A DNA stretch of 64,000 nucleotides from Deroplatys truncata (lineage: Eukaryota; Arthropoda; Insecta; Mantodea; Mantidae), in assembly GCA_030765065.1 (NCBI GenBank), contig CM060975.1:200236007-200300006 (forward strand), given 5' to 3'. The notes beneath the pieces are model-generated. The model saw nothing but the letters and a program-made list of their open reading frames with translations. It did not search any database and was not told the origin of the DNA. Shown piece by piece: positions 35,836 through 52,460 of the stretch. A program made the position numbers and the translations under genes. Every line of letters begins with the position of its first letter. Position 1 is the first letter of the stretch.

Positions 35836-36933
35836 GAAAGCCAATTTGAAGTAGGAGTTGTATTGTACTTCAACTGTTGGGGAGCCGAACTTGAAGTAAT
35901 TGCAACCGCACGTATGGTACCCGGTAGCCTTCGCCCCAAATTTAAAATATTAACTTTGTAATTTGACTGTTTCTTTAAATATTATATATTTATGTTTGCC
36001 TCGGCTGCGTCAGTATTATTGTTAGAGACATGGATTTCTTTGCAGGTAGTAGTGCGGCTAAGAATGTAGGCTTACACAGATTATAATGTTTACTTCACTA
36101 AATTTATTAATCCTTGGCACAATTTAAATAACACTTCACTGATATAGAGAGCTGTGAGATTCTTTTATTAATTACTTGCACTTTATGCAAGTATTTATGT
36201 TTGCCTCGGCTGCGTCAGTATTATTGCTAGAGACATGGATTTCTTTGCAGGTAGTAGTGCGGCTAAGAATGTAGGCTTACACAGATTATAATGTTTACTT
36301 CACTACATTTATTAATCCTTGGCACAATTTAAATAACACTTCACTGATATAGAGAGCTGTGAGATTCTTTTATTAATTACTTGCACTTTTTAACACGTAA
36401 GCTATTTTTGTCTCACACTGAATACGTATTGAACTTCTCGAGGACGCATCTCGCGTCCGGTTAGGAACGCTGTTTACAAGCAACTGACTTCTGAATTTGT
36501 ACAATTTGCCCTATTTCAGTTTCTGATTGGCTAATCCTACTCAAATAGAATACTTTGATTTAATTTAAGCTTTTTTCTGGTTGTTGATTGCCTATTTATA
36601 AACTGTCTCAAAATTAACATTATTGTTGCTCCAATAATTACAAGCAGCATTTTTAAACTTTCTTATTCATTATTGCCTCAAGATTAACTTATTGTTACCT
36701 CATTGTTAGCAACTTTTAACCTATTATTCTCACAGCTCTTACATTATTAAATTACGTAATATATTCACATAACATTATTGAACTTGTACATAATAATATA
36801 AACATTAATATAATGACTGTCACATGCATTTTATATATTATACTATACACATATTGCTTCAAGGCGGGTTGTTATTATATTTTATATTATATAAATTGAC
36901 TGAAATCATTTAAGTGTTAAAAGTACTGCCTCA
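35836..36933 (-). mobile_element. Family L LTR plus leader (L2)
   Basis: The LTR starts TGAGGCAGTACTTTTAACAC at 36933 (minus strand) and ends near 35940, just before TTTGGGGCGAAGGCTACCGG. It is about 990 bp instead of about 800 because of an internal 205-bp tandem duplication. The leader (35836-35939) contains the ggctccccaacagttgaag motif seen in L4. Confidence 0.75.
35985..36394. repeat. 205-bp tandem duplication inside the L2 LTR
   Basis: tatgtttgcctcggctgcg occurs at 35991 and again at 36196, and the two units stay nearly identical to ttacttgcacttt. The other L copies have the unit once. Confidence 0.9.
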
Positions 36934-47199: not shown

Positions 47200-47470
47200 T
47201 ATGTACACAATATTTGCTACTAGTTTCTTCTTCTCTCATTATACGGCTACCCTCATCTAGATCACAAGAACTGAAGATTTGTGTTAAAAAGTGTGTATAT
47301 GTATATAATATTTGCCACGAGGTTTCTTTTTTGTTCTCCCATCATACGGCTACCCTCATGTAGATCACAAGAACTGAATATTTGTGTTAAATAGTATGTA
47401 AATGTACTTAATTTCTGCCACGAGGTTTCTTCTTTGTTCTCTCAACATACGGCTACCCTCATCTTTAGGT

Positions 47471-48206
47471 TTAGGACAGGTCATTGTCATCTCCGAGCAT
47501 CTGCAGTTCTAGGAAAACATCTGGAGAATCTTCGATACATTGAGGGCGAATAAAAGCAAGCAAAGGTAACCAACTAAATAATTATCATACAAATAGGTAC
47601 CTAGGCTTTTGGTTGCATGCTTTTGATGAACTGCATAAGGACAATTCCTTTTGTAACATTTGCATAGCCAGCGTGAACCAGAATCAACACATTTATCTGA
47701 CACTGAACACCATAAACTCCTGCATTTTCTTATTTTACAACGGTATTCCTTTGACTGAATAATGAGTGAATAAATAAATAAATAAATAAACAAATAAATA
47801 AATGTGTATAACTAGATGATCCGTGCGAATAAGTTGGACAACCTTGACAAATATTTAAATACACCATAAAACTGTCATTCACACATGTTTAAATACTGGA
47901 CTCGTCTGGCTGCCAGTAACGTGACACATTGTAAAACCATATATAGATACAGTTTTGATATGTATTCTAAATTACTTTTTCTAAAACTAAAAGCCATATT
48001 TAATAAACAATATATGTACGTATGAGAAGATACTTGATGTTGGAGGTTGCACCAATATGCTGAAGTTTTGGCAAGGTCCAAGCTGTGTGTGCTACACCCC
48101 AAGTATAAAGTCGTTTCAATGGTGTCACCATAGAGCAATTAATAAATTTTTTTCAGTGAATGTTTATTACCTTGGACTTTTTAGTTATATCTACGTAATT
48201 ATATTA
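47471..48206. other. Unassigned, with an (AAAT)n tract
   Basis: (AAAT)n at 47770-47803. Two ORFs of 87-94 codons on the minus strand show no motif I recognise. Otherwise AT-rich. Confidence 0.4.
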
Positions 48207-48515
48207 CATATTGTGACGTAAAGTTTGACGTCGCCTCTATTTGACTCGGAAGTCCTTGGCAGCTCCATCAAATGTGAAGGTCACTTTGCCCAACTCAGAT
48301 CCTATGAAAGAGTCCGGCGTTCCATTTTCGTCGTGCCTAGGGCTTACGTCGAAGTTTTAAGTTAGCACAAAATAAATTTAAAGAGCTGATCGACACAGAG
48401 TCCTGCTAGGCAAGTGTTACTTCAGACTTCTTCCGTCTACCAGTTAAAGCCTCGCTCTCTAACTCTCTCGCAGTTGGAGTATATGAGGACTATTCATAAA
48501 GTAACTTCCGTTTAT

Positions 48516-49282
48516 TACTTTCTCTACTACGTATAGTAATTAGGAAGTATTGCATTCCACCCACACACTCTATACCCATATTTCACCTGGAAATACATGT
48601 TTTGAGACCTCCTGTATAAAAACACAAAACAGCATATTTAGAAAAAGGTCTGTGTCTGTGACCCGAAAAAGTTCAAGAAAATCCCTCCATCCCAAATTAC
48701 CCTTTACATGGAACGTTTTTCGAAAACCTTTATTTTCTCAAAAATGCTCTAACATTTTGATTAAAATATAATATGTTTAAGATACTTTCATGGCAAATGA
48801 AATATATACCTTGAACTTTCTGGGAATGTCCCCACAAGTCGTCTTCATTCTGAATGAATTTTGGGTAACTGCTAAACCGTAAGACATAGACAAAATTTCA
48901 CTACACAAAAATTGTAGATCTCGTTAAAACACACACTTTGTCACATCCATTTTTTTGTCGAGTGAACCATTTCCGAGATCCTTGTTATTTGTTTGAATTT
49001 TCCAATACTTTTTTTCCAATTTGTCTCAAATGGGGAATTCGTTATTCTTTTTTTTTCCTGGACACTCAAACAGAATGGAATGCTCCACATAGCAACCAGC
49101 TCTTAAAAGATTTGACTACCGCTTAAAGCCTACCACATCCCCTTTGCACCTACAGGAAAATTAGCAATAACGTAGTTTCTGCAAATGTTTATCTCTATTA
49201 ACATGAAGTAGACGTAGAATCAGCATTTGTAAAAATAGTTTGTACAAGAGTAGAGAAATTTACGTGAGTGTAGCACATCAGA
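48516..49282 (-). mobile_element. Family A copy 17, complete
   Basis: Begins tactttctctactacgtat and ends agtgtagcacatcaga. Inserted at the inner edge of the N left arm. Confidence 0.78.
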
Positions 49283-49299
49283 TTTGTTTTTCAAAAAAT

Positions 49300-49883
49300 G
49301 TGAATGAAGTTACAGAATTTGTTTTACAACACTTTGAAAGTATATACTCTAATTTATTTTTCCACGTAGTTTCCAGCCACATTGAGACACTTCTCGTAGC
49401 GTTTGACGAGCTTTGAAATTCCACAATCGTGGAATTCTGCCGCCTATGACTGAAGTCAACCTACAATCTTCGTAATCGCCAAAGTACTTCGCGTCAAGCC
49501 ACTTCCTCAACAAGCCACGACGTTTGTTTGAATGGCCCTTCTCAAGTTTGTTACTCTGTTGCAATATGTCAGCATTTCTCTCCAAGAACTCCACTAGCAA
49601 AATTCCTCTTCTGTCCCAGAAGACAGTTTACATGAGTTTCGTGCTGGAAAGTGTTTGACGACACAAAACGTGGGTTCATATATTGAAGTTTTGTTTGACG
49701 CAGATTTGAAAACCAGCGTCGTAGGCTGGCTTTAGTCAAAGGCGGCAGAATCTGCGATTGCGGAATTTCAAAGCTCGTCAAACGCTATGACAAGGTTTCA
49801 ATGTGGCTGGAAACTATGTAGAAAAGTAAATTAGCGGGTGTACTTTCAAAGTATTGTAAAACAAATTCTGTAACTTCATTCAC
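49300..49883. mobile_element. Fold-back element built from mariner 3' ends
   Basis: The arms GTGAATGAAGTTACAGAATT (49300) and their complement (ending 49883) extend about 145 bp and include the transposase C-terminus in both directions (CGISKLVKRY ... NVAG/NYVEK on the minus strand at the left, CGISKLVKRYD on the plus strand at the right). The centre has LLVEFLERNADILQQSNKLEKG-like sequence on the minus strand. So two copies of the same end point at each other. Confidence 0.7.
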
Positions 49884-50079
49884 GTTTTACTTTCTCTACT
49901 GCGTATAGTAAGTGGGGGAGGTATTGCATTCCACTCAAAAATTCAGTATCAAAATGTTACCGGAAATACATGTTTTGAGGCACCTGAAGCCAAAAAAAGC
50001 ATTTTTAGAAAAGGTCCGTGTGTGTCTGTGAAAAAGCATAATTCAAAAACCAAAAGTCGGATAAATACTAACTTGGTAT

Positions 50080-51052
50080 TGTGGCAGTATTTTATATCAC
50101 AACACTGTAAATGCCAGAGTGATTGTAGTGTAATTTAACATTATTGTATGACAATGATCTGAGATGTTTGTTAATTATAAGCATTATTAGGAAATAAGTT
50201 TACACGACCTCACTGAAACTGACATTAAGAGCGGGTAACAGTGAGCGAGGGGGTGAGTTGTTTATTAATTAGAAGAGACAAGCAAATGACGTCAGAGTGG
50301 CGCGCTTTCCTGTAGAAATGGAGAGAATTTCTTCCCTAGAGCATATGTGTTCGTAATTTTGATTGGATATAAAAATAGACGCTAATGTTGGCTCGTTTTA
50401 TTAACCAATAGCAACTCGGTTATAATCTTTAGGCATATCGGGTGAGGGAGTATAAATTCCGTTCCAGAGACGGGTAAAGCGCAGTTTGACAGAATAATTC
50501 ACGAGGTAAACGTCGCTCTGTCCAACGGAAGGATTCGCGGTAATACGTCGTTCAGTCCAACAGAATCATACACAGGTTATACGTCGCTCAGTTCATCAGA
50601 ATCGTTCGCGGGTTACACGTCGCACAATTCTACAGGATCTCTTGTGTCGTAAAGTTACTTATAAATGTGAAATACGCGAATTAATAATGTGCAGCAAATA
50701 AGTGATTATAGTAACATTAGAAAATATAACAGTTTCATTCTGGCGTGTATTAAGAGTCAATATGTGAAATTAATTAATTGTGACGGTAATAAAAGTGTAA
50801 AAACAAATTCTTTTATAAGTGTTATCTTTCAGTAACAAATCCTTTCCATTTACACACCCTGTTCAAGAGATATGCTCGACTGAGTAGTAATAATAGCTAG
50901 CCAGAGGACAAATAACCCAACATTCAAACTATTAATACAATAACAGGGCGCTCAGCAATAGATAACACGAAGTTACTGCGACAAATTGGCTCCCCTACGT
51001 TGTGCAGATAAACATGAAGCATCTTCCAACTACAATAAAATATTCTACTTCA
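50080..51052 (+). mobile_element. Family M LTR element M1 with GTAT target duplication
   Basis: Begins TGTGGCAGTATTTTATATC and ends TTCA, flanked by GTAT on both sides. The LTR portion (50080-50983, ending GCGACA) matches solo LTR M2. A CCAAT box (50405) and a TATAAATT (50451) are spaced like a pol II promoter, and AATAAA is at 50788. After the LTR come AATTGGCTCCCCTACGTTG, a candidate primer-binding region, and 70 bp of leader. The very end resembles an inverted LTR start. No coding sequence. Confidence 0.75.
50498..50640. repeat. 35-36 bp minisatellite in the M LTR
   Basis: Four imperfect units start at 50498, 50534, 50569 and 50605, each with (g)gtnanacgtcgctcagtcc. They lie directly downstream of the predicted start site. 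The same region of M2 (about 56100-56240, minus strand) also has repeated acgtgtaactcgcgaa units. Confidence 0.75.
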
Positions 51053-52119
51053 GTATTTAGGTATAATATCTCTCAAAGATACGACACGAAGATTTTAAAG
51101 AAAACCTCCCCATTCCAGACTAGCCTTTACATGGAACATTTTTCAAAATTTTGATTTTTTCATAAATGACTAACGATTCTGATTAAAATACCATATATTT
51201 AAGATATTTTCATGACAAATAAAATGTACACCTTGAATTTTCTGGGAATGTCCCCAAAGTGCTCTTCATTCTAAATGGCTTTTTCTTATCGGGTAAACCT
51301 TAAGAGATAGACAACATTTTTTTACATAAAAAAATGTAGATCTCCTTAAAACACACACATTATGTCATATACCTACGTTTTATTGTGTAATGAGCCATTT
51401 CCGAGATATTTCTTGTTATTTGTTTGAATTTAGCAATACTTATACTTTTTCTCAAATGGGAATTTGGTATTCTTTTTTTATGTCCTTCACATGCAAAGAG
51501 AATGGAATGCTCCACATAGCAACCAGCTCTTAAAAGATTTGATTATTGCTTAAAGTCTACCATATTCCCCTTGTATCTACAAGAAAATTAGCAATAAGAT
51601 TAACATCTCGATATCTCGATTAACATGAAGTATGTGGAGAATAAGCGTTTGTAAAAATAGTTTGTACAAGAGTAGAGAAAGTTATGTGAGTGCAACACAT
51701 CAGATTGTTTTAAAAATAAATGAAAGTTACTTTATGAATAGTTCTCGTAGATTAGATTTGTTACTAAGAAGATTAAAGTGCCTCTTGGAATCAGAATTGT
51801 AGTCTAATAGTGTCATCCTTTCGCCACCCTTCCAACTACCCACAATCTATGCCCTCTCAATGACATCCCTGTGCATCGTGCCCGTCCTCTTCACTTATGT
51901 TAAAGGCGCTGAGTCGGGCAAAGTTACTTCACATCTGGTGGAGCCGCCAAGGGCGTACGAGACATCTGGTGTCGTCGCCGTGTCAAAGAGGCAACGTCAC
52001 ACATCTTACGTCACAATATGAATAATTTACATACTATTAACATATACCCAAACTGAGAGATATTAATACACCACATATTCCTACAGGAATGCGCGCATGC
52101 ATACAGATAAGAAGGCGAA

Positions 52120-52460
52120 TAACAGAGATTCTACTCTGGTTCATTTGTGAGTCTGGCCCAAGTATAAAAGGTTTCGATGAATCTGTGCACCTATGTGTAA
52201 AAATTGCAAACTTATGTATCCGTGTGGAGGTTTCACGGCTGCGTTGTGCGACGGGATGTTTTTTAAACCTATGCGATTCCACAGTATTTTATTTACTTTT
52301 ACGGTGGCACTATTTAATTCGAGAAGGTATGTTAGGTTCTGTCCAGCAATCTTGACATACTTGGGTGCATGTTACGGTATGTCATTTATCATTCCGTTGT
52401 GTACTTTCCTAATGTTTCGTTCATCTGGAATCCTTAGTGAAATAATATGCAGGGGATATC
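52120..52460 (+). repeat. Family X repeat, copy X2
   Basis: tatccgtgtggaggtttcac and gcgacgggatgttttttaa resemble X1 at 35702-35835. A frame open for 90 codons (52193-52465) includes CGGFTAALCDGMFFK, partly shared with X1, which hints at a once-coding repeat. No known domain recognised. Confidence 0.4.

Follow-up and report, generated by a model that had tools for sequence, protein, structure and literature searches.

Architecture of the Locus

The window analyzed here is a 64,000-nucleotide stretch (G000:C1:200236007-200300006) of the 4.29-Gb genome of Deroplatys truncata, across which further copies of each layer were sought. It carries a set of repeats that lie one within another (Table 1). 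The outermost is an old dispersed repeat, R, which is about 760 bp long when unbroken and which spans about 47812-52385 in the window with its insertions. R encloses Q, Q encloses N, and N bears two copies of the A family, the second of which is split by M1. Each layer was tested via its further copies in the same genome, and the limits of those copies were read. Because at most the best 40 candidates were scored in each similarity search, all copy counts are lower bounds.

Table 1. Positions of the nested components within the window
Feature	Position	Strand	Description
R left part	47812-48208	+	old dispersed repeat around Q; exact left end not fixed
TA at Q left end	48209-48210	.	
Q left arm	48211-48419	-	piece from the Q family unit's right half, inverted and with an internal deletion; seen in this copy alone
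Q right arm, left of N	48425-48481	+	contiguous in L007 with the segment after N
N outermost left arm	48484-48514	+	preceded by TA (48482-48483)
A1	48515-49289	+	A copy within N left arm
N central part ("fold-back mariner")	49290-49886	+	inverted arms, mariner transposase remnants
A2 left part	49887-50079	+	includes first GTAT (50076-50079)
M1	50080-51052	+	973-bp TG..CA unit, solo-LTR-like
A2 right part	51053-51716	+	starts with second GTAT (51053-51056)
N outermost right arm	51717-51747	-	followed by TA (51748-51749)
Q right arm, right of N	51750-52016	+	ends CGTCACAA, followed by TA (52017-52018)
R right part	52019-52385	+	end at about 52372-52385

The original prediction described a nested stack of four levels. 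The nest is real, but it has five levels, since R had been overlooked as the layer around Q. The same prediction held that the insertion order Q, N, A, M1 is fixed by the sequence of the window alone. We arrive at the same order, and its support comes from empty sites elsewhere in the genome rather than from the window by itself.

M1, a Solo-LTR-Like Unit

M1 starts with TGTGG, ends with TTCA, and carries GTAT on both sides, just as had been predicted for an LTR element within the second A copy. Its limits are about the same in all 40 copies scored (the best 40 of 9626 candidates). Flanks were fetched for nine of the 39 other copies and judged by eye, and eight of these display a perfect 4-bp target-site duplication (TSD): GCAT, ATTT, GTAT, AAAT, GATT, GTGG, ACAC, and ATTT. 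The ninth copy (L063) lacks a TSD. The A consensus has a single GTAT at the M1 site (..AACTTGGTATTTAGG..), and at locus L045 both halves of A meet at the M1 target, likewise with one GTAT.

Judging from its sequence, M1 most likely derives from an abundant LTR retrotransposon as a solo LTR, for which we infer a past recombination between LTRs. We take it to belong with the solo LTRs of LTR retrotransposons, whose TG..CA ends and 4-bp TSD it shares. It differs in that the 40 scored copies (the top of 9626 candidates) include no pair at the distance expected of an LTR element, and in that M1 is not assigned to a family. Three further observations concern this unit. Tandem repeats of 36 bp (3.8 units) lie inside M1 at 50489-50623, a second copy in the window (56658-55786, minus strand) is 13% different from M1, and the last 71 bases are repeated directly beside two M1 copies at G000:C3:54015982-54016051 and G000:C7:165312818-165312887.

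The A Family

Two copies of A are present inside N, as proposed originally, but the word "complete" fits them loosely, given that A1 measures 775 bp compared to 858 bp for the A consensus. Moreover, A1 and A2 are in direct orientation to each other rather than inverted as had been claimed; an inverted arrangement is seen only when they are compared with certain other A copies of the window. Matches to A occur at 14 or more places in the window, A1 and A2 included. Head-to-tail A copies, an arrangement familiar from rolling-circle elements, are found at 44320-43186 and 21378-20458 (minus strand), and the segment 43821-43641 (minus strand) matches the N terminal inverted repeat (TIR) plus the start of A at 65%.

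A total of 44 near-full A copies was assembled from the window and 40 loci, with 14 duplicate or overlapping loci set aside. The consensus starts with TTACTTTCTCTAC and ends with GTAGAGAAAGTCATGTGAGTGTAACACATCAGAT plus Ts, and the ends of the element read TTACTTTCTCTACTACGTATAG ... GTAGAGAAAGTCATGTGAGTG. A 12-bp subterminal inverted repeat (subTIR) is exact in the consensus and was equalled in 1 of 2000 base shuffles; its 11-bp core is exact in 36 of 43 copies on the 5′ side and in 32 of 43 on the 3′ side. The dinucleotide TT precedes A in all 38 copies with readable ends (six of the 44 were dropped), where part of the Ts may be A's own. The flanks are T-rich, and no TSD was seen. Eleven readable copies outside N had not been recruited by a query containing CCGTTTATT. 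In nine of these, A is immediately preceded by at least five Ts, in one by three, and in one by the end of another A.

The idea that A specifically targets CCGTTTATT was discarded, since the loci in question had been recruited by a query that itself contains CCGTTTATT, and several of them lie in another repeat. In this query-recruited sample, A sits at CCGTTTATT in an apparent other repeat, possibly A-related, at six loci (L022, L027, L031, L033, L036, and L037), which have common flanks near TCTCTAYCCACTACCGTTTATT and TTTTATATAGCTTCTACAAACTA.

According to the published account (PMC4067079), Helentron-type non-autonomous elements (HINEs) carry, close to the 5′ end, subterminal inverted repeats 12-15 bp long and use TT or T-rich targets without a TSD, and the mite HINE families have a short palindrome after the 3′ subTIR. 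A resembles these elements and DINE-1, as portrayed there, in its 12-bp subTIR located 2 nt from the 5′ end, in its T-rich targets with terminal Ts at both ends and no TSD seen, and in its internal GT-rich stretch, high copy number, and head-to-tail copies. Two differences from that portrayal exist. The 3′ subTIR of A is 29 nt from the 3′ end, compared to 38-60 in the mite families, and is accompanied by a stem (ATGTG/CACAT) in 27 of 43 copies. In addition, the terminal hairpins of A fold no better than chance, with equal or lower values in 25, 78, and 47 of 300 shuffles. On balance, its sequence features suggest that A is most likely a Helentron-type non-autonomous rolling-circle element, whose rolling-circle mode of movement would follow from that assignment.

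N Is a Single Fold-Back Element

The end repeats of N are 35 nt long with 89% identity and have TA at both ends, which agrees well with the 33-bp TIRs and TA flanks first described. What had been set apart as a separate fold-back mariner between the two A copies is indeed present (at about 49295-49888, with arms of ~170 nt), but genome copies reveal it to be part of N, whose arms overall are ~200 bp. The N core occurs at 39 other places (best 40 of 253 candidates), and at 20 of these it is in one piece, from query position 24 or before to 602 or beyond. Six fold-back copies from the top of this list, chosen regardless of A, were fetched with their flanks. In five of them (L055-L059), the fold-back runs on both sides into the TIR TA-CGAGGGCTATTCATAAAGTAACTTCCGTTTATTTTTTAAAAAAATGTGAATGAAG and both arms lack A, one TIR end being degenerate in L057. 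In the sixth (L060), one arm is occupied by A, such that A fills one of six copies and one of 12 arms when copies are chosen in this manner. TA adjoins the TIR in the fetched copies. Because genome copies run from TIR through fold-back to TIR, the N ends and the fold-back mariner are a single element, a Tc1/mariner fold-back MITE, each arm of which is split by A at the same T-tract.

Both N arms have the insertion tract TTTATTTTTTAAAA at ~30-40 bp from their ends, and A occupies each arm in the window. A query made from the TIR/A junction recruited further loci, including three with A in one arm (L044, L046, and L047), one that reads TIR-A-TIR without the core (L048), and two that are partial (L045 and L049). 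The tract is nearly palindromic, being T-rich and then A-rich, and this may explain why A has the same absolute direction in both arms.

Evidence for the mariner affiliation includes a Pfam match to Transposase_1 (PF01359) in the N copy L055 (E 3.4e-7). The same domain scores below the cut-off in the window's own N frame (E 0.004), and Pfam returned no transposase match in two shorter N peptides. N belongs with the Tc1/mariner fold-back MITEs, whose terminal TA, long inverted arms, and transposase remnants it shares. N differs from them in that both of its arms bear the 3′ side of the transposase, as judged by eye, and it is not matched to a named mariner subfamily.

Q and the Outer Layer R

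The end repeats of Q are evident in the window, where 48207-48303 and 51904-52020 align in inverted orientation with 80 of 96 aligned positions identical (alignment score 45.5, compared to at most 15.0 across 500 base shuffles). To this extent the 110-bp TIRs attributed to Q exist, but the arrangement recurs in no other scored copy: neither the left-arm junctions nor 110-bp TIRs were found elsewhere in the scored copies (best 40 of 745 candidates; five of five; best 40 of 410 candidates), and the 39 other matches to a left-arm query stop at query positions 45-51 (best 40 of 410). As far as seen, the 110-bp TIRs appear to be private to this Q copy. The family unit is about 724-800 bp long and runs in one direction, with its left end near (TA)TTGTGAC.. 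and its right end near ..CGTCACAA(TA). A short TIR (TTGTGACG/CGTCACAA) with TA is readable in several, not all, of eight aligned unit copies. Thus, a Q family with 110-bp TIRs was rejected, since family copies have short TIRs and other limits, and so was a long Q element, given the size of the unit. In the comparison with TA-type MITEs, Q has no transposase link.

Genome copies of Q bear the segments 48425-48481 and 51748-52020 side by side, without N. At L007, for example, the window segments 48425-48481 and 51747-51987 adjoin (1586-1646 and 1644-1896, respectively), which constitutes an empty N site. A single TA occupies the N target in most of the aligned empty Q copies. The search for empty elements that the original prediction suggested therefore yielded both Q copies without N and, as described above, N copies without A. 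That prediction also named genome copies with different limits as a refutation. Those of Q do have different limits, and those of N do in part, since its body includes the fold-back.

The R left flank occurs at 39 other places (best 40 of 418 candidates scored), and 33 of these matches start at query positions 1-8, where the query starts at 47810. The right flank likewise has 39 other matches at 70-81% (best 40 of 418 candidates), of which 26 end at query positions 344-358. Seven R copies without Q were identified in total. Four of them (L079-L082) align unbroken across the junction of the joined flanks, which represents an empty Q site, and three (L083-L085) have both R flanks without Q, with a short deletion at the site in L083. 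TA is found at the empty site in L082, and the other aligned copies differ there. R forms a fifth level of the nest.

A second R copy is present in the window at 39062-35046 (minus strand), where both Q flanks are matched in order with 62 bp in place of Q. Further insertions have since entered this copy, namely an A copy at 38934-38111 together with ~0.9 and ~1.1 kb of extra sequence, which makes it a second nest within the same window. Its last small match, 35070-35046 versus 52423-52447, lies beyond the R limits. Two tandem copies of a 205-bp unit, matching at 98%, are located at 35987-36389, and a 103-bp tandem repeat (2.3 copies) lies left of R at 47224-47464.

Order of Insertion and Alternative Explanations

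We consider it very probable that this locus is a five-level nest of successive insertions (R > Q > N > A2 > M1, and A1 likewise within N). Other loci display the limits of the layers, the empty sites of Q, N, and A, and A copies with only one GTAT. In the sequence of events that we propose, the old dispersed repeat R would have received Q at a TA. Q, rearranged into its inverted-duplicated form before or after this event, would then have received N at another TA. A elements would subsequently have entered both N arms separately at the T-rich tract, without a TSD, giving rise to A1 and A2. Finally, M1, most likely as a solo LTR, would have entered A2 with duplication of GTAT. The enzymes responsible for these steps and the way in which the Q left arm arose we infer rather than observe. 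The evidence places A1 and A2 after N and leaves their order relative to each other unfixed, and this N copy may already have carried one of them on entering Q.

M1 shows 89-94% identity to or among its other copies; the corresponding values are 80-90% for N cores, 68-80% for Q pieces longer than 100 bp compared to L007, and 70-81% for R (right flank). This scale fits the proposed order, with Q and R not separated because their divergences overlap. A is not placeable on the scale, its consensus sample being rich in young copies. Divergence from the A consensus is 14.2% for A1 and 12.1% for A2, and that of the N core from its own consensus is 8.1%. At face value these numbers make A look older than N, but they carry little weight and offer no independent confirmation of the order, because the consensuses derive from differently biased samples.

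If N and its A copies were a composite transposon amplified as a unit, then A would already have been in place before Q was entered. At L044-L049 and L060, seven further loci, A does lie at the same position of N-type arms. A tree was built from 43 A copies, with one of the 44 omitted as a doubtful chained match. The eight A copies in N-type TIRs (two in the window and L044-L049) require eight label changes on the best tree, compared to a shuffled mean of 7.5, and the starred branches force at least five. A single label change occurred in none of 200 bootstrap trees, and one clade of A-in-N copies was rejected by the AU test (p 1.8e-56). L049 is on a long branch, and L046 and L048 fall in one unresolved group, which leaves room for a small shared group. 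The A copies in N are scattered over the tree, and therefore carriage by N was not the main route by which A spread; those copies do not descend from one N+A unit. L060 and window A2 are also oriented oppositely relative to the arm, and the exact filled-junction pattern (forward-filled) occurs only twice genome-wide, in the window and in L046. Composite amplification was rejected on the tree, and we regard it as quite unlikely for this locus.

A more plausible alternative, albeit one that we do not favor, concerns only the origin of the Q left arm. This arm might be a second, truncated, inverted Q insertion beside the first rather than part of a fold-back derivative of one Q, as the left and right arms bear partly different segments of the family unit. 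However, each outer end is a Q terminus next to TA, and a single empty R site results when the flanks are taken together, as expected for a single element. Such a second insertion is compatible with the rest of the five-level explanation. By comparison, we find it extremely improbable that the stack has four levels in which N and the fold-back mariner are separate and Q represents a family with 110-bp TIRs. The limits used for that reading are legible in the window itself, but TIR and fold-back are contiguous in genome copies, the units of the Q family run in a single direction with short TIRs, and R encloses Q. It is just as difficult to credit an assembly artefact that wrongly joined layers from different repeats. 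Although the region is highly repetitive, its junctions agree with filled or empty sites elsewhere and show TA and GTAT as expected.

Concluding Remarks

The five-level nest is an ordinary product of a large, repeat-rich genome, and no new mechanism is needed to account for it. Nesting is an already known phenomenon, and in a study of plant LTR retrotransposons (PMC6911290), it is described as common, especially in large genomes, with non-random insertion into older elements. The locus described herein is similar to those plant examples in its repeated insertion into older elements. It differs from the LTR retrotransposons treated there in that its layers combine DNA transposons with a HINE-like element and an LTR-like unit. 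Among titles and the starts of abstracts, studies of nesting and of HINEs came up, and no published study of this locus or of an A-into-mariner hot spot was found, a search whose partial coverage of the literature gives this result little weight.

At this locus, successive insertions can be put in order from paralogous empty sites, which makes it a clear example of the approach. It also illustrates that two symmetric insertions, one in each arm of a fold-back element, can create the impression of an additional element. We would be somewhat surprised if the T-tract of the N arm proved to be a true docking site for A that is used more than T-tracts of equal length, with dispersed MITEs serving as landing pads that can be filled in both arms. 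Recurrent insertion of A at one T-tract of N would make the target choice of a Helentron-like element measurable genome-wide.
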